Of a stretch of 64,000 nucleotides of DNA, positions 51,341-57,937 are shown in pieces. Numbering within the stretch: position 1 is the stretch's first letter; each line of letters starts with the position of its first letter. A model generated the notes under the pieces. It saw only the letters and a list, made by a program, of their open reading frames with translations. It was not told the DNA's origin and made no database searches. The position numbers and the translations under genes were made by a program. Origin of the DNA: an uncultured Acidobacteriia bacterium (GTDB lineage Bacteria; Acidobacteriota; Terriglobia; Bryobacterales; Bryobacteraceae); the NCBI GenBank assembly GCA_903907865.1, contig CAIVPR010000141.1, forward strand, positions 1 through 64,000, in the 5' to 3' direction.

Positions 51341-51574
51341 TCAGACTGTATTCTCGAAGACTGCCATCTTGAATTCGTCCAGAGCGTTCACGCCGAACAA
51401 CGACACATAGGAGTATCGTGTCAAGCCGATATCCTGCGCCTTCTTCGCGTCCTTAAGGTATTCGTTCCAAGCGTACGTCTTCCCTGTACCCCAGTGTCCG
51501 GCTATGCACAAGACCTCCGGCTCCACGCTTCCAAGAAAGCGGCGAATCTCTTGCTCAACCAGGACCAATGACAT
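51341..51574 (-). pseudogene. Truncated P-loop NTPase (N-terminal fragment)
   Basis: 77 aa with a clear Walker A, IAGHWGTGKTYAWNEYL, and a normal-looking start (MSLVLVEQEIRRFLGSVEPEV), then YSYVSLFGVNALDEFKMAVFENTV and a stop. P-loop NTPases of this look (KAP/STAND-like) are several hundred residues long. Walker B and all later domains are missing, so this is the stump of a larger gene, cut close to the hairpins at 51242-51315. It lies in a small accessory patch. Confidence 0.65.
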
Positions 51575-52366: not shown

Positions 52367-52432
52367 AGAGACTAGTCTACTGCAATTCAGGCCGAATCGC
52401 GTACCCGCATGCAGTCGGGCCATCCAGGACCA

Positions 52433-52460
52433 TTTTGATCCGCGATCCCTTTGCTATAAT
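52433..52460 (+). promoter_or_regulatory. Candidate promoter of the FTR1 operon
   Basis: A perfect TATAAT at 52455-52460, with a weak -35 (TTTTGA, 52433-52438) 16 bases upstream. The -10 is 24 bases before the FTR1 start codon. The weak -35 would fit an iron-controlled gene. The palindrome at 52465-52481 lies just downstream. Confidence 0.6.
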
Positions 52461-52464
52461 GAAC

Positions 52465-52481
52465 TTGCAACTGAGTTGCGA
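52465..52481. promoter_or_regulatory. Candidate operator palindrome before FTR1
   Basis: TTGCAAC-TGA-GTTGCGA: two 7-base arms with a single mismatch and a 3-base centre, between the -10 box and the start codon, where a bound dimer would block transcription. It is the size expected for a Fur or DtxR-type dimer. It does not match the classical DtxR or Fur consensus, so the binder is unknown. The operon itself encodes a DtxR-like domain. Confidence 0.55.
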
Positions 52482-52483
52482 AA

Positions 52484-53749
52484 ATGCTCCAGACCTTCAT
52501 CATCGTCCTGCGGGAAGGCGTCGAGGCCGCTCTCGTCATCGCAATCGTCCTTTCGTACCTCCGCAAGACCGGTCGCGCCGACTTCCTCCCAACCGTCTAC
52601 AAAGCTCTCGCCGCAGCCGTAACCGCTTCATTTGCAGCAGCTTGGGAACTCGGACGACTGGGCATCGGCGAGGACTCTTTCGGTGGCTGGACGCTCCTGC
52701 TCTCTGCCGCGTTCGTGCTCTCCATGGTTGTCTGGATGAACCGCCATGGCAAGACCATGAAAGCCGAAATTGAAAGTCGTTTGCAACAAGGGCACACCCA
52801 TGCATCCTCGCCACGGGCCCGGTTTGGCATCTTCGCCTTCGTCTTCCTGATGATCTTTCGGGAGGGCGTCGAGACCGTCCTGCTCCTCATGGCCGTCCGC
52901 CTCGACACCGCCGGGCTACTCCAATGGGTCGCTGCGCTCGCCGGTGCCGCCCTCGCCGCGCTCTTCGGTGTGAGCTTCGTACGAGGCACGTTCCGGGTCA
53001 ACCTGCGCCAGTTCTTCCAGATGACAACGGTCATCATGATGGTCGTGGTGGTGCAACTCTCGATCACCGGCCTGCACGAGCTCTCGGAAAGCGGCGTTCT
53101 GCCCAGCAGCGAGTCGGAAATGGCGCTGATCGGGCCCATCGTCAAGAACGACATCTTCTTCTTCATCGTCATCCTCGCCATGGCTGCTGCAATGATGCTG
53201 CTCGAATGGCGCAAACGCTACGCCCCGGATACCAAGGGTCTCGAAGGCGCGATGCTCCGCAAGGCGCTCTGGACGGCGCGCCGCGAAAGGACGTGGATGG
53301 TCGGCTCGTGCGTGGCCTCGTGCGTCTTCATCCTGTCGATCACGGCGGAGTTCATCTACGCCCGCGAGGCGTCGGCGCTTTCCGCCCCGACACCGGCGGT
53401 TTTCGAACGGCAAGCCATCCGCATCCCCGTCTCCGCAGTGGACGACGGCAAACTGCACCGCTTCTTGGTCGACGACCAAGGAGTCCACGTCCGCTTCATT
53501 GTGATCCGGAAGCCGGACAACTCGCTCGCCACCGCCCTCGACGCCTGCAACATCTGCGGCACCCAGGGCTATCTCCAAAAGGGTTCCGAGGTGATATGCC
53601 GAAACTGCGCCTCGAACATCCTGACTGGGACCATCGGCACCGAGGGCGGCTGCAACCCGGTGCCGCTTGCGTCCCACGTCGAGGGACCGACCCTGGTGAT
53701 TGACGAATCGGCGTTCGAGCGGGGCGTCAAGGTGTTCAGGAAAGGGTAA
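52484..53749 (+). CDS. FTR1 iron permease fused to DUF2318
   Basis: Inner-membrane iron permease, 421 aa. The FTR1 part (about 1-290) has seven or so hydrophobic segments and both iron-binding motifs: REGVE at 10-14 and IFREGVETVL in the middle. The C-terminal DUF2318 domain (about 315-421) carries CNICGTQGYL and VICRNCASNI (two CxxC pairs) and GGCNPVPL, thought to bind a metal or Fe-S centre outside the membrane. In Campylobacter the two are separate genes (Cj1658 and Cj1660), with P19 between them; here P19 is missing. First gene of the iron operon. Confidence 0.9.
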   Translation: MLQTFIIVLREGVEAALVIAIVLSYLRKTGRADFLPTVYKALAAAVTASFAAAWELGRLGIGEDSFGGWTLLLSAAFVLSMVVWMNRHGKTMKAEIESRLQQGHTHASSPRARFGIFAFVFLMIFREGVETVLLLMAVRLDTAGLLQWVAALAGAALAALFGVSFVRGTFRVNLRQFFQMTTVIMMVVVVQLSITGLHELSESGVLPSSESEMALIGPIVKNDIFFFIVILAMAAAMMLLEWRKRYAPDTKGLEGAMLRKALWTARRERTWMVGSCVASCVFILSITAEFIYAREASALSAPTPAVFERQAIRIPVSAVDDGKLHRFLVDDQGVHVRFIVIRKPDNSLATALDACNICGTQGYLQKGSEVICRNCASNILTGTIGTEGGCNPVPLASHVEGPTLVIDESAFERGVKVFRKG

Positions 53750-53761
53750 TCGCGACTCCCG

Positions 53762-55006
53762 ATGCTGGTCCGCTTCGTCCAGGATTCGATCCGCCGCGCG
53801 CCCCGTCGCAAGGCCATGCTCGTCGCCGCAATCGCGATGGGCTCCGCCGTAGCGGCTTCGATGCTGGGTGTAATGCTGTCGATCGGCGACAAGGTGAACC
53901 GGGAATTGCGCTCCGCCGGTGCCAACATCGTGGTGCGGAAGCGTGCGTCGGTAGTGACCGGCGGCGTTGGCGGCGTCACGACGTCGGCGACCGGCGCGGC
54001 CAACTACATGGCGGAAGAGGATGCGGTCAAAGTCCGGAGCATCTTCTGGGGGCTGGCGATCACGGGCTTCTCCCCCTCTCTTACGGCACGCGACGGCGAT
54101 GTCCCGGTTGACGGCGTCTGGTTCAACCACGAATACAAGGATCCCGGCGGGAATATGGTGCGGACCGGCGTCCGCGACGTCAACCCCGCATGGCGCGTTC
54201 AGGGGCGCTGGGCTGCGGACGATTCCTCCGAGTGCCTGACAGGACAAGGCTTGGCCAAGCGCAAGGGCTGGGCGGAGGGTGCGTCCGCCACTGTCTTCGG
54301 AGAACCGTGCCGGATCGTCGGCATCCTCTCTTCCGGCGGCGACGCCGACGACCATGTCCTGATGCCGCTACACACTTTGCAACGCCTGACCGGCAAAGCG
54401 GGTCGGATTAACCTTATTGATGTTGCGGCGAATACCAAGCCCGAGGACGATTTCGCCCGTCGCGACCCGAAGACCCTTTCGGCCTCCGAGCTCGAGCGCT
54501 GGAGCTGCACCAACTACGTGCTCTCCATTGCATATGAGATTGAGCAGGCGATCCCCGGAACCGTCGCGCGCCCCGTGCGCCGCGTGGCCGATTCCGAGGG
54601 CAAGATCCTCGACCGCGTGGGCGGCCTGATGGCCTTGATCGCGCTGGCGGCGTTGGTTTCGGCAGGCTTGACGGTCTGGAGCCTGACTGCCGCGGCGATG
54701 ATGGAGCGGCGCGGCGAGATCGCGATCATGCAGGCTATCGGCGCGGCCCGGTGGATGGTAGCGTTGCTGTTGGGGATCGAGGTGGCGCTGGTGGGACTGG
54801 TCGGCGGCATCGTTGGCGCAGCCGCCGGAGTGGGCTTGGCGAGTTTCGTGGGAGAAGCAGTCTTCGGCGACGCCGTTGAGGTATCCCCCGTTCTCCCGTT
54901 CGCGGTCGTGGTGGCGGCGGTGCTGGTCTCACTCGCGGGGGCATCGCAACCGTTGAAGAAGGCGCTGGATTTGGAACCCTCGGTGATCCTCAGGGAGGGC
55001 GTCTAG
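53762..55006 (+). CDS. ABC transporter permease (FtsX/MacB-like), first subunit
   Basis: 414 aa membrane permease with one N-terminal helix (AMLVAAIAMGSAVAASMLGVML), a large periplasmic domain (about 45-270) that contains ANIVVRKRAS and CLTGQGLAKRKGW, and three C-terminal helices (LIALAALVSAGLTVWSLTAAAM, VALLLGIEVALVGLVGGI, VVVAAVLVSLAGAS). ERRGEIAIMQAIGA between them is the FtsX hallmark that contacts the ATPase. It corresponds in place to Campylobacter Cj1661. Probably helps move iron or electrons across the envelope with FTR1-DUF2318. Confidence 0.88.
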   Translation: MLVRFVQDSIRRAPRRKAMLVAAIAMGSAVAASMLGVMLSIGDKVNRELRSAGANIVVRKRASVVTGGVGGVTTSATGAANYMAEEDAVKVRSIFWGLAITGFSPSLTARDGDVPVDGVWFNHEYKDPGGNMVRTGVRDVNPAWRVQGRWAADDSSECLTGQGLAKRKGWAEGASATVFGEPCRIVGILSSGGDADDHVLMPLHTLQRLTGKAGRINLIDVAANTKPEDDFARRDPKTLSASELERWSCTNYVLSIAYEIEQAIPGTVARPVRRVADSEGKILDRVGGLMALIALAALVSAGLTVWSLTAAAMMERRGEIAIMQAIGAARWMVALLLGIEVALVGLVGGIVGAAAGVGLASFVGEAVFGDAVEVSPVLPFAVVVAAVLVSLAGASQPLKKALDLEPSVILREGV

Positions 55007-55008
55007 CC

Positions 55009-56052
55009 CTGTTCCTCCGATTCATCCTCCGCGCGCTGGTCCATCGGAAGCAGCGCCTCATCCTGGCCTTTTCCGCCCTGACCGTCGCAGCCACCCTTGC
55101 GACCGTCCTCCTCGGGATCTACACCTCCGTAGAGCGTCGGCTGCGCAACGAGTTCCGTGCCTACGGTGCCAACATCGTCGCGGTTCCGACGACCGGCACC
55201 ACGATCCCCGCCGCCATCGTCGACGCCGCCCGCAACCTCGGAGCCGAAGCCTCGCCATTCCTTGTGACAGCCTCGGGCGGCGTCCCGGTGGTCGAATTCG
55301 ACCCCAAGTCCGCCGCCCCCATGACCGCCTACTGGCACGTAACCGGCACACGCGACCTCGGCCCTGGGGAGTGCGTGGCCGGAGAACTTCTCGCCACCCA
55401 ACGGTCGCTGAAAATCGGCCAGCCCGTGGCGATTGCCAACAACTGTGTCCTGCGCGGCATCCTCGCCACCGGCGGGCCCGAGGACCAGGAAATCCTCCTC
55501 CCGTTCCCGGCCCCCGCGAATGAAGTCAGTCTGATCCAAATCCGCGCGCCCGGAGACCGCATCGATACCGTTCGTGCCCAACTGGCTTCGAATTTTCCCG
55601 GTACCGACTTCCGTACGGTGCTGGCGGTGGCCGCCACGGAAACAACCGTGATCCTGAAAGTCCGCGCCGCCCTGCTGGCCCTGATCCTGGTCATTCTTGG
55701 GATCACCACCCTCTGCGTTACCAGTAACTTCACCGAGATGGTGGTGGAGCGCTCCAAGGAAATCGGCATCCTGAAGGCGCTCGGCGGCACCGACGGCCTG
55801 ATTGGCGCCTTCTTCATCGCCGAATCCGCAGCCTTGGCCACCGCCGCCGCCATCACCGGCTACGCGCTCGGAATTGCCGCCTCGGGAGCCATCGGACGAG
55901 GCATCTTCGGTGGCGCTTTCCGCGTCGAATCCAATTGGACGGTGTTCGGTGGGGTCACGCTGGTGATCCTGCTGGTTGCGGTGCTGGCAACCGCCGTCGC
56001 CGCATCGCGCATCCGCCGCATCGACTCCGCTGTCATCCTGAGAGGTGAATAG
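55009..56052 (+). CDS. ABC transporter permease (FtsX/MacB-like), second subunit, probable CTG start
   Basis: 347 aa. It has the same architecture as the previous gene: first helix (RLILAFSALTVAATLATVLLGIY), periplasmic domain with ANIVAVPTTG, and three C-terminal helices with MVVERSKEIGILKALGG. The first ordinary start, GTG 55264, would cut off the first helix and part of the domain. The frame is open upstream, with no ATG/GTG/TTG until the previous gene. The CTG at 55009, two bases after the previous stop, follows GGAGG with about 10 bases' spacing, so a CTG (or coupled) start is proposed. It corresponds to Cj1662. Confidence 0.82.
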   Translation: MFLRFILRALVHRKQRLILAFSALTVAATLATVLLGIYTSVERRLRNEFRAYGANIVAVPTTGTTIPAAIVDAARNLGAEASPFLVTASGGVPVVEFDPKSAAPMTAYWHVTGTRDLGPGECVAGELLATQRSLKIGQPVAIANNCVLRGILATGGPEDQEILLPFPAPANEVSLIQIRAPGDRIDTVRAQLASNFPGTDFRTVLAVAATETTVILKVRAALLALILVILGITTLCVTSNFTEMVVERSKEIGILKALGGTDGLIGAFFIAESAALATAAAITGYALGIAASGAIGRGIFGGAFRVESNWTVFGGVTLVILLVAVLATAVAASRIRRIDSAVILRGE

Positions 56053-56053
56053 A

Positions 56054-57199
56054 ATGCCCGCCTTCATCGAGTTGAACGACGTCCGCAAGGTCTACGGAAA
56101 GGGTCCCGCCGAAGTCCGTGCGGTCGACGGCATCTCGTTCCGCGCCCACCAAGGCGAGTGGATCGCCATCATGGGCCCGTCCGGATCCGGCAAAACCACG
56201 CTGCTCAACCTGATCGGCTGCCTCGACCAGCCGTCGTCCGGCTCGCTGGTGATCAACGGCACCGACACGGCAACCCTAACGCGTTCCGAATTGGCCCGGT
56301 TTCGCTCCGAGACGCTGGGATTCATCTTCCAGCAGTTCCACTTGGTGCCGCACCTCTCGGCTCTCGAAAACGTCATGCTGGCGCAGTACTTCCACAGCAT
56401 GACGGACGAAAAAGAGGCGCTGGCGGCGTTGAGGCAGGTCGGCATGGAGGGCCGCGCGAAGCACCTTCCGTCGCAGCTTTCGGGCGGCGAGCAGCAGCGC
56501 GTCGCCATCGCCCGCGCTCTGGTGAACGACCCGCGCATCATTCTCGCCGACGAGCCCACCGGCAACCTTGATGCCGAAAACCAGCGCATCGTTTTCCGAA
56601 TTCTGGGGCAACTGCACGAGCAGGGGCGCACCATCGTCATGGTCACCCACGACGAGAACGCTGGCAAGCTGGCCGACCGCCGTTTGAACCTCGAGCACGG
56701 GCGCATCAAAGAGAACCTGGTGTTCTCGGCGGAAGAGAACCAGGACTTCGACGAGATCCTGGAGCATCTGTGGATGCGCACCGAGGACAGAAGCCATGAT
56801 TTCGGCCATGTCGAGGCACACGAGTTTACGCCCGTGCAGTGGCGGCGGATCGTGGCAACGATGGAGGGGATCGGACTGGTAACAGTGCAGGACGGCGTCG
56901 AGCAGTTCACGCCGAAGGGCGAGGCCCGCGCGCGCGACGTCATTCGCCGCCACCGGCTCGCCGAACGCCTATTCATGGACGTGCTGAACATCCACGACGA
57001 GGACGAGGTGGAGCAGAGCGCCTGCAAGTTTGAACACATCTTGAGCCCTGAGGTCACGGACAAGATGTGTACGCTGCTGGGGCATCCAAACGCATGCCCG
57101 CACGGCAGCCGAATCCCGCGCGGGGAGTGTTGCGAGGAGGGTCGGGTGTTGCCCGCGGCAGAGGCGGCGGGGGTTTTGCAGGGTTTGCGGGTGTCGTAG
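56054..57199 (+). CDS. ABC transporter ATPase fused to DtxR-type metalloregulator domain
   Basis: 381 aa from ATG 56054 (GAGGTG upstream). The ATPase (1-220) has GPSGSGKTT (41-49), [27 protein letters not shown] and [12 protein letters not shown], typical of MacB/LolD ATPases. Then comes a winged-helix-like stretch (about 229-290: [47 protein letters not shown]), followed by a DtxR/MntR dimerisation domain (about 290-355: [21 protein letters not shown] with Cys324, Glu327, His328, and CPHGSRIP with His350). These are the metal-ligand positions of DtxR. The fusion is unusual and suggests metal-sensing control of transport or of transcription. Confidence 0.88.
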
Positions 57200-57224: not shown

Positions 57225-57698
57225 TTACGATCTGGGGAAGTCGGGATCGCGGCGGCGAAGCCTGTGGTCATACCGAAACGGTATCGGAGGCTCGAACCGG
57301 ATCAACTTGAACTCGGGATGATTGGGATTTAGGATGACACAGCATTCGCCCGGAACGACGATGCTCGGAACTCTGATCACAGCAGCTTTCCCGTCGGCGA
57401 GGATTTCTCCTCCTACCAGCTGTGTTGCGCTCGTCTCAACTGGGTTGTCCCACCCCTCCGGGAGATCGCACGGGTCCACGGTGGCCGTGGAAACGTCGTC
57501 TGGAATGTGGATTTCGGTGAACGCCTCGTCGATGGGCAGGCGGACCAAATGCACCAGTCGTTCGAGGACACACAGTGCCCGGCTTTCAGCAGCATAGACA
57601 GCTGGGATTCCGACCGGGTTCCAGCGCCCACCAAACCGTTTGGCACCTTCACCGCTGGACGCGGGGTAAGAGATTCCGCAAAGTCGGTAAGCCAACAT
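57225..57698 (-). CDS. RES-domain toxin (NAD+ phosphorylase type)
   Basis: 157 aa. RES-domain toxins degrade NAD+. Here [50 protein letters not shown] shows the family's Arg, Tyr, Glu, and Arg/Ser positions, with [24 protein letters not shown] near the end as in RES proteins. Only 3 bases separate it from the small antitoxin-like gene upstream, so the two are co-expressed. The active-site pattern appears intact. Confidence 0.87.
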
Positions 57699-57700
57699 CG

Positions 57701-57937
57701 TTAGAAGATGCCGTGTTCAACTCTGCCGAGGATGGTTGAGACACGGATTCGATCAGACTCCGAGCCTCGAATCAGGTCGGCAGGACGTCGACCGCCCAAC
57801 GAGGGGATGGGTTCCGTCAGCCATTCCTCGGCTCTGGCCGAATCCCCAAAGACGCGGAGCACTTCTTCGCGGAAACGGGACTCCTCCGGAACAAGGCCAC
57901 GCACCTCGGTTGGCACGTCCAAGATTAAGGCGGGCAT
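57701..57937 (-). CDS. Short Xre/MbcA-type (DUF2384) antitoxin partner
   Basis: 78 aa. The C-terminal EEWLTEPIPSLGGRRPADLI matches the DUF2384 signature (W…xPxxxLxGxxPxxLI) that binds RES toxins. Ordinary Xre/ParS antitoxins have about 120-140 residues with an N-terminal helix-turn-helix; here the N-terminal half is only about 40 residues (LILDVPTEVRGLVPEESRFREEVLRVFGD) and has no clear HTH. It is either a short subtype or a worn one. The next gene is the toxin. Confidence 0.75.
   Translation of the reverse strand: MPALILDVPTEVRGLVPEESRFREEVLRVFGDSARAEEWLTEPIPSLGGRRPADLIRGSESDRIRVSTILGRVEHGIF

Follow-up and report, generated by a model that had tools for sequence, protein, structure and literature searches.

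A single open frame at 56054-57199 on the plus strand of the window, the 64,000-nucleotide stretch of acidobacterial DNA analyzed here, encodes a 381-residue protein in which an ABC ATPase is followed by a C-terminal metal-sensor domain (a fetD-dtxR fusion). With somewhat better than even confidence, drawn from sequence comparison, a structural model, and analogy, this protein is taken to be FetD, the ATPase subunit in an iron-uptake system of the fet type, furnished with a cytosolic sensor from the DtxR family, which would respond to Fe2+ (or Mn2+) and act posttranslationally on the transporter motor as a brake when iron is replete. Feedback on bacterial iron uptake is usually told as a matter of transcription, exerted by Fur or DtxR. 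The posttranslational reading proposed here draws on the invariance of the metal ligands, the decay of the helix-turn-helix (HTH), the position of the closest relatives beside FeoB, the apparent assignment of transcription to Fur, and the precedent of MetN and ModC.

The fused gene, its operon, and its distribution

Pfam assigns residues 25-169 of the protein to ABC_tran (E 7e-36) and residues 286-356 (56909-57121) to the metal-binding and dimerization domain Fe_dep_repr_C (PF02742; E 2.2e-26, with 92 bits where the cut-off is 27), a level of significance that rules out a chance match and bears out the prediction, made in a first-pass annotation, of a DtxR metal-binding and dimerization domain behind an ABC ATPase. 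The tail also matches solved DtxR and IdeR proteins, at E 2.3e-17 and weaker. The ATPase part (residues 1-223, 56054-56722) has a MacB/LolD fold; its closest profiles are of LolD/MacB type, with every match under the curated cut-offs. An AlphaFold2 model of the fused protein as a monomer (mean pLDDT 84.8, pTM 0.59) was used in a fold search, in which MacB was the closest structure for the ATPase part among the best 50 of 1702 matches; these 50 were ABC-transporter chains throughout and are uninformative on the tail. Lys47, Ser143, Asp166, Glu167, and His199 of the ATPase are invariant in an alignment (A2) of 42 fused proteins, comprising the window and 41 of 48 fused loci, and this invariance of catalytic residues counts in favor of the posttranslational reading.

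The fusion is the fourth and last gene of a plus-strand operon. The first gene, fetA-like (52484-53749), combines an FTR1 iron permease (residues 1-204; PF03239, E 7.6e-35) with an FtrD-like/DUF2318 domain (residues 319-418; PF10080, E 7.3e-29). It is followed by a fetB-like gene for a MacB/FtsX-type permease (53762-55006; PF02687, E 2.7e-15; PF12704, E 2.6e-12) and a fetC-like gene for an FtsX-type permease at about 55009-56052 (PF02687, E 2e-14 on 55012-56049), the uncertain start of which was set by eye, with the sequence and the profile matches of relatives as guides. Where homology would place the start, the codon is CTG instead of ATG, GTG, or TTG, and the list of open reading frames begins this gene only at 55264. 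The ATG of the fusion gene lies one base past the stop codon of the preceding permease gene. With FTR1 and FtrD, two FtsX-type permeases, and an ATPase among its predicted products, the operon is a fet-type iron system.

The genes flanking the operon lie on the opposite strand. Downstream, at 57225-57937 (minus strand), a RES protein (PF08808, 6.6e-27) adjoins an Xre/MbcA/ParS-type antitoxin (PF09722, 1.4e-14); this RES/Xre pair, immediately past the operon, is probably a toxin-antitoxin pair. Upstream are an HNH gene and an ORF devoid of Pfam matches. A short frame at 51341-51574 (minus strand) gives a weak, below-cut-off match to KAP P-loop NTPases (0.0032) and is possibly a truncated gene.

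A join of the frame by an assembly error near 56740, which the first-pass annotation had raised as a concern, is excluded. Eighteen other genomes of the genus were compared: in 13, matches run through this position into the tail, and five have no fused match. Outside the genus, matches reach the tail in 3 of 42 genomes (G037, G060, and G024, the last as two pieces flanking a run of N). A scan of GTDB species genomes yielded 70 loci, 48 of which carry the identical in-frame fusion, ruling out an artefact of assembly or frame. The fetC-like permease gene is directly upstream in 42 of these 48. Among the other six, four begin at a contig edge within the ATPase, a run of N interrupts L050, and L041, labelled Xanthobacteraceae and kept in the counts, shows no fet genes in the 5.8 kb upstream and may lie on a chimeric contig. 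Apart from L041 and L076, which is labelled Planctomycetota, the titles of the fused loci all name Acidobacteriota. L068 was scored as unfused since its contig starts inside the gene, yet its tail groups with the fused ones.

A survey at phylum level found the FtrD domain in 45 of 247 genomes, and the fet loci from 40 of these comprised 18 with fused and 14 with unfused FetD; for eight, contig ends or other contexts prevented a decision. At one locus (L163, G207:C36), fetABC has no FetD-like ATPase within 10 kb, and the FUR match in that genome is marginal. In the phylum to which L076 is assigned, the tail profile finds matches at E 1e-15 in 46 of 246 genomes, and these fall into two groups of at least 110 bits or at most 70 bits; four of the 20 loci examined there are ATPase fusions after fetC, including L076 itself, recovered again as L250. 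That the fusion is kept so widely (48/70, 18/40, and 4/20) counts for the reading of the protein as FetD with a sensor.

Relatives beside FeoB and the history of the tail

The unfused relatives place the metal domain beside a different iron importer. At 15 of the 22 unfused loci in the scan, the metal domain belongs to a free protein that carries FeoA at its C-terminus, and a FeoB gene is nearby in every case; a Pfam check covered five of these DtxR-FeoA proteins and five FeoB neighbors. Among the 20 loci examined in the phylum of L076, 16 are FeoA-linked (among them L269, a 369-residue frame that is FeoA-linked rather than fused to an ATPase), again all beside FeoB, and the combined 31 of 31 may be 30, as the metal domains of L081 and L255 are identical and the two probably represent a single locus. 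None of six free DtxR-FeoA proteins matched PF01325, five being scanned to E 0.01 and L075 to E 10. The seven other unfused loci are the truncated L068 and six with a canonical DtxR placed outside the clade in the tree, four of which are also near FeoB. Three loci (L093, L085, and L090) show FeoB-like matches in two or three separate frames beside the DtxR-FeoA protein, as in a split FeoB, and L093 also has an FTR1 permease in the cluster. A FeoB_N search of the window's own genome gave weak matches, the best at 69 bits, in frames taken for other GTPases.

In a tree of metal domains, the fused tails and the FeoA-linked proteins form one clade (99/97) apart from canonical DtxR. The nearest kin of the fused tail, as judged from this tree, are the DtxR-FeoA proteins beside FeoB; the tree has 100 rows and 81 shared columns, its bootstrap did not converge, and it is compatible with one fusion event or several. 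FeoA is reported to stabilize GTP-bound FeoB (PMC8980893), so that in both systems the sensor adjoins the NTPase step. A broader proposal, which we put forward tentatively and at slightly less than even confidence, is that a DtxR-derived sensor devoid of DNA binding serves as a general posttranslational brake on iron importers. Acidobacteriota and Planctomycetota would have it as the FetD tail, and many other lineages as a fusion with FeoA next to FeoB. If so, DtxR would be a family of sensors employed on transporter NTPases as well as on DNA.

The tail is not indispensable to the operon. In a tree of the ATPases, nine unfused FetD proteins of one genus are nested in a group of fused ones that has 96/92 support, and five other unfused proteins sit at or near the base. 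In the nested nine-genome clade, the tail was thus probably lost while the operon was kept, and the persistence of the operon in a clade devoid of the tail, like the five genomes of the genus that show no fused match, marks the tail as dispensable, which counts against the sensor reading.

The DNA-reading half and control of transcription

Between the first sensor helix and the metal-binding domain lies a degenerate winged-helix remnant (residues 244-285, 56783-56908), recognized as such from the model, the absence of PF01325, and relaxed conservation. In the model, the ATPase is followed by a helix (residues 226-243), a low-confidence loop (244-259), a second helix (260-272), and a wing of two strands, after which come the metal-domain helices; HTH helix 2, the one that precedes the recognition helix, is replaced by the loop, with a pLDDT of about 60. 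Three fused tails were scanned for PF01325 at E 10: the window and L076 gave no match, and L055 gave a weak one (E 0.04; 14.6 bits, below the cut-off of 26). In the window's own genome, the ordinary DtxR matches the same profile at 4.7e-12.

Conservation of the recognition-helix segment was compared between 48 fused proteins (the window plus all fused loci except the truncated L095, 47 of 48) and 30 canonical DtxR proteins of related genomes. Because the canonical set comes from the same order and the fused set from a wider range, the two were matched by metal-domain identity. Recognition-helix identity in fused versus canonical pairs was 0.16 versus 0.68 in the 0.6-0.7 bin, 0.38 versus 0.75 in the 0.7-0.8 bin, 0.61 versus 0.85 in the 0.8-0.9 bin, and 0.79 versus 0.96 at 0.9 and above; the pairs are non-independent and the alignment of this segment is gapped in some clades. 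Within the genus, where 10 genomes have both proteins, the ratio of HTH to metal-domain conservation is 0.70 for fused and 0.81 for canonical proteins, and the recognition-helix segment is fairly conserved, with two basic residues. The small size of this within-genus contrast counts against decay. On balance, the sequence comparisons and the predicted structure indicate that the DNA-reading half is decayed in the fused tail.

The ordinary DtxR of the same genome (G000:C53, L031:4790-5473) has DPHG, with Asp for the Cys of the CPHG found in the tail, and, as in MntR, a Glu at the position of Cys102; these features suggest that it may be a manganese regulator.

Transcription of the operon seems, from its promoter sequences, to belong to Fur, apart from the tail. 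The probable -10 box of the promoter, TATAAT (52455-52460, plus strand), is preceded by an inverted repeat, GGACCATTTTGATCC (52427-52441), and separated from the fetA start codon by the palindrome TTGCAACTGAGTTGCGA (52465-52481), a probable Fur operator. The GGACCATTTTGATCC repeat resembles what we take to be sites of the Rrf2/IscR type and may belong to an Rrf2-type regulator; related GACCAATTTAGTC-type sites precede unfused fet operons. The palindrome belongs to a Fur-box-like family found also in front of operons that begin with fur. Its form TTGCAACTGAGTTGC occurs exactly in 11 of 38 fetA upstream regions, that of the window included, and other lineages have TTGCAAATGATTTGCAA or TGAAATTGAATTTCA-like sites. 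At 12 loci a fur gene adjoins fetA on the same strand, with a fused FetD in view at 11; Pfam confirmed FUR for two of these genes. Some fur genes of such fur-fet operons are preceded, just after a -10-like box, by TGAGAATGATTATCA (L173 and L174) or TGAGACTGAGTTGCA (L179, L182, and L183), which have the classic Fur-box shape. It is these fur genes next to fetA, together with the Fur-box-like sites at several fur-fet promoters, that point to Fur as the regulator of the operon. The window's own genome encodes two FUR proteins, and one of them, L102, falls in the operon-type Fur group (92/91, short of full support) in a tree built from 29 of 40 PF01475 matches.

Within that genome, 52465-52481 is the sole site with at most one mismatch to the operator pattern, and this near uniqueness counts against Fur, as a global Fur should have more sites. 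With up to three mismatches, the pattern occurs at seven places, against three for a control pattern, and none of the six other places, read as ORF lists, was assigned an iron role; use of the operator as a regulon marker was therefore dropped.

These observations bear on the possibility that the tail is a true repressor of the fet promoter, either attached to the ATPase or cleaved from it as in Chlamydia YtgCR (PMC7755916), so that sensing, transport, and gene control would be united in one polypeptide. The first-pass annotation had suggested such a union, with the palindrome at 52465-52481 as the DNA to be bound. Besides the YtgCR precedent, a helix and the wing of the winged-helix fold remain in the model, L055 retains its weak PF01325 match, the helix segment within the genus keeps its two basic residues, the operator is nearly private to the fet operon, and Acidobacteriales and Bryobacterales differ both in the operator and in the helix segment. 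Yet the window tail has no PF01325 match, helix 2 is missing from its model, and its recognition-helix segment is far less conserved than that of canonical DtxR; these features make binding of the tail to 52465-52481 unlikely and, with the membership of the palindrome in a Fur-box-like family, leave gene control by the fusion unsupported. Moreover, L083 and L084 retain TTGCAACTGA half-sites though their helix segment is unlike that of the window, and fused operons may bring their own fur gene and Fur-box-like sites. Release of the tail by separate translation also lacks a conserved internal start: some start codon occurs near helix 1 in 35 of 49 genes, with no position above 13 of 49. As a whole, we regard a repressor tail as distinctly improbable.

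The clade that has lost the tail offers evidence of a more equivocal kind. Operator and tail are both missing there: no Fur-like palindrome was found in the 160 bp upstream that were examined, and operon-type Fur was absent among the 10 of 19 FUR matches, from ten unfused-clade genomes, that were included in the Fur tree. Joint loss of tail, operator, and Fur fits the loss of iron control over the whole operon, and it fits equally an operator-binding tail.

Metal ligands, a possible mechanism, and comparison with known systems

In contrast to the HTH, the metal-binding half is kept. His300, Glu304, Cys324, Glu327, and His328, all in the Fe_dep_repr_C domain, occur in every one of the 48 fused proteins. 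Cys324, Glu327, and His328 align, in an alignment to IdeR, with residues of the DtxR primary site, presumably Cys102, Glu105, and His106. The first sensor helix (residues 226-243, 56729-56782), placed by the model and by profile alignment to IdeR, bears Glu234 and Glu237; Glu237 is found in 46 of 48 fused proteins and Glu234 in 40, with His in six. The family profile aligns with IdeR from this helix onward, Glu234 falling at Met10 and Glu237 at Arg13 of IdeR, positions that we take to be the ligand places of Asp8 and Glu11 in MntR. Glu320, located at DtxR His98, is kept in 38 of 48 fused proteins and is thus not invariant, a hint of possible change at the second DtxR site. The tail ends in a Cys/His-rich segment, CPHG...CC (57095-57133), whose Cys348, His350, Cys359, and Cys360 occur in 48 of 48 fused proteins. 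We know of no DtxR or IdeR ligand at the CPHG loop (Cys348 and His350). The ligand list of the first-pass annotation (Cys324, Glu327, His328, Cys348, His350) hence stands for its first three members; the last two are invariant but have no known ligand counterpart in DtxR, and the list omitted the invariant His300 and Glu304 and the first-helix residues Glu234 and Glu237.

The conserved CPHG...CC end admits another interpretation, in which the tail is an iron acceptor or chaperone that takes entering Fe2+ and passes it on, with no role in sensing. The columns of this segment are at least 90% conserved in a 41-row alignment that includes 13 FeoB-linked relatives, and the fet and FeoB contexts are both those of iron importers. 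Nevertheless, the tail is attached to the ATPase, whereas the FTR1 permease should be the component that passes iron; the helix-plus-dimer architecture typical of a sensor is kept; and one FeoB-linked relative, L087, lacks these cysteines. An acceptor function is accordingly considered unlikely.

Extra tails that have no sensing role exist on other ABC ATPases, and PF02742 is itself a dimerization domain. The tail could by this token be a mere scaffold that joins the ATPase subunits or recruits a partner, any metal being structural. The invariance of the metal ligands and the recurrence of the same domain beside FeoB, which ties its role to iron, speak against such a module, and we give it little credence.

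A posttranslational sensor could work as follows. A FetD homodimer would sit beneath the two FtsX-type permeases, with its tails paired through the DtxR dimerization domain. When cytosolic Fe2+ (or Mn2+) is high, the metal would bind His300, Glu304, Cys324, Glu327, and His328 together with Glu234 and Glu237. In the model, the helix bearing the two glutamates begins three residues past the last ATPase strand, so metal capture there would have a direct influence on where the ATPase sits. The helix would be drawn onto the sensor dimer, altering the spacing of the two ATPase domains and slowing the ATP cycle, and iron uptake would be braked with no need for new gene expression, transcription being handled separately by Fur. 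Metal binding by the tail, the identity of the metal, the effect on the ATPase, and the inhibitory sign of that effect are what we infer in this scheme. The substrate of FetBCD is described as not established (PMC6083913), which counts against a sensor acting as a brake.

The sensor of a transcription factor seems here to have been transferred to the motor of a transporter and to have shed the part that reads DNA, while in parallel a close relative took a place next to FeoB. If this is true, the fusion would represent a direct case of fast iron feedback on transport and a handle on the function of FetBCD. It would also mean that proteins encoded next to feoB or fet genes and annotated as an "iron-dependent repressor" need not be repressors.

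Among known systems, the fetMP-fetABCDEF cluster of Campylobacter jejuni resembles the operon in its FTR1 and DUF2318 components, two permeases, and an ATPase, clustered downstream of a Fur box (PMC10783030; PMC6083913), and deletion of fetA, fetB, fetC, or fetD impairs growth (PMC10783030). It differs in that FTR1 and FtrD form one protein here and no P19 or thioredoxin genes were found among the flanking genes inspected; the main texts of the two C. jejuni papers make no mention of DtxR. DtxR, IdeR, and MntR share with the tail the metal-binding and dimerization domain and the primary-site ligands, and the tail carries acidic residues at the presumed places of MntR Asp8 and Glu11; the fusion to an ABC ATPase, the degenerate HTH, and the absence of a FeoA/SH3 domain set the tail apart. 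The DtxR-FeoA proteins, an architecture mentioned briefly in PMC8980893, have the same degenerate N-terminus and metal domain and belong to one clade with the fused tails, but they are free proteins with a FeoA domain, encoded beside a GTPase importer.

The first-pass annotation knew of no standard example of such a protein. For an ABC ATPase joined to DtxR this holds, insofar as no description was found in the literature searched, most subscription journals lying outside its reach. It does not hold for transporter fusions at large: in Chlamydia YtgCR, one polypeptide holds a component of an ABC transporter together with a DtxR domain that depends on iron, with the differences, as described in PMC7755916, that the partner is a permease instead of an ATPase, that the protein is cleaved, and that its DtxR domain is a working repressor on DNA. 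An ABC transporter component fused to a DtxR domain is therefore already known, and the ATPase as partner is what differs here. The closest functional parallel would be MetN and ModC, in which C-terminal domains bind the transported substrate where they dimerize and restrain the transport cycle (PMC10710835). These proteins are likewise ABC ATPases with a C-terminal dimerizing domain, for which the mode of action proposed here is the same by analogy; their domains have other folds and other ligands, and the present ATPase is of MacB/LolD type. In its domain order and retained ligands, the fused protein matches this MetN/ModC-type plan, with a predicted ligand-binding dimerization domain placed after the ATPase.
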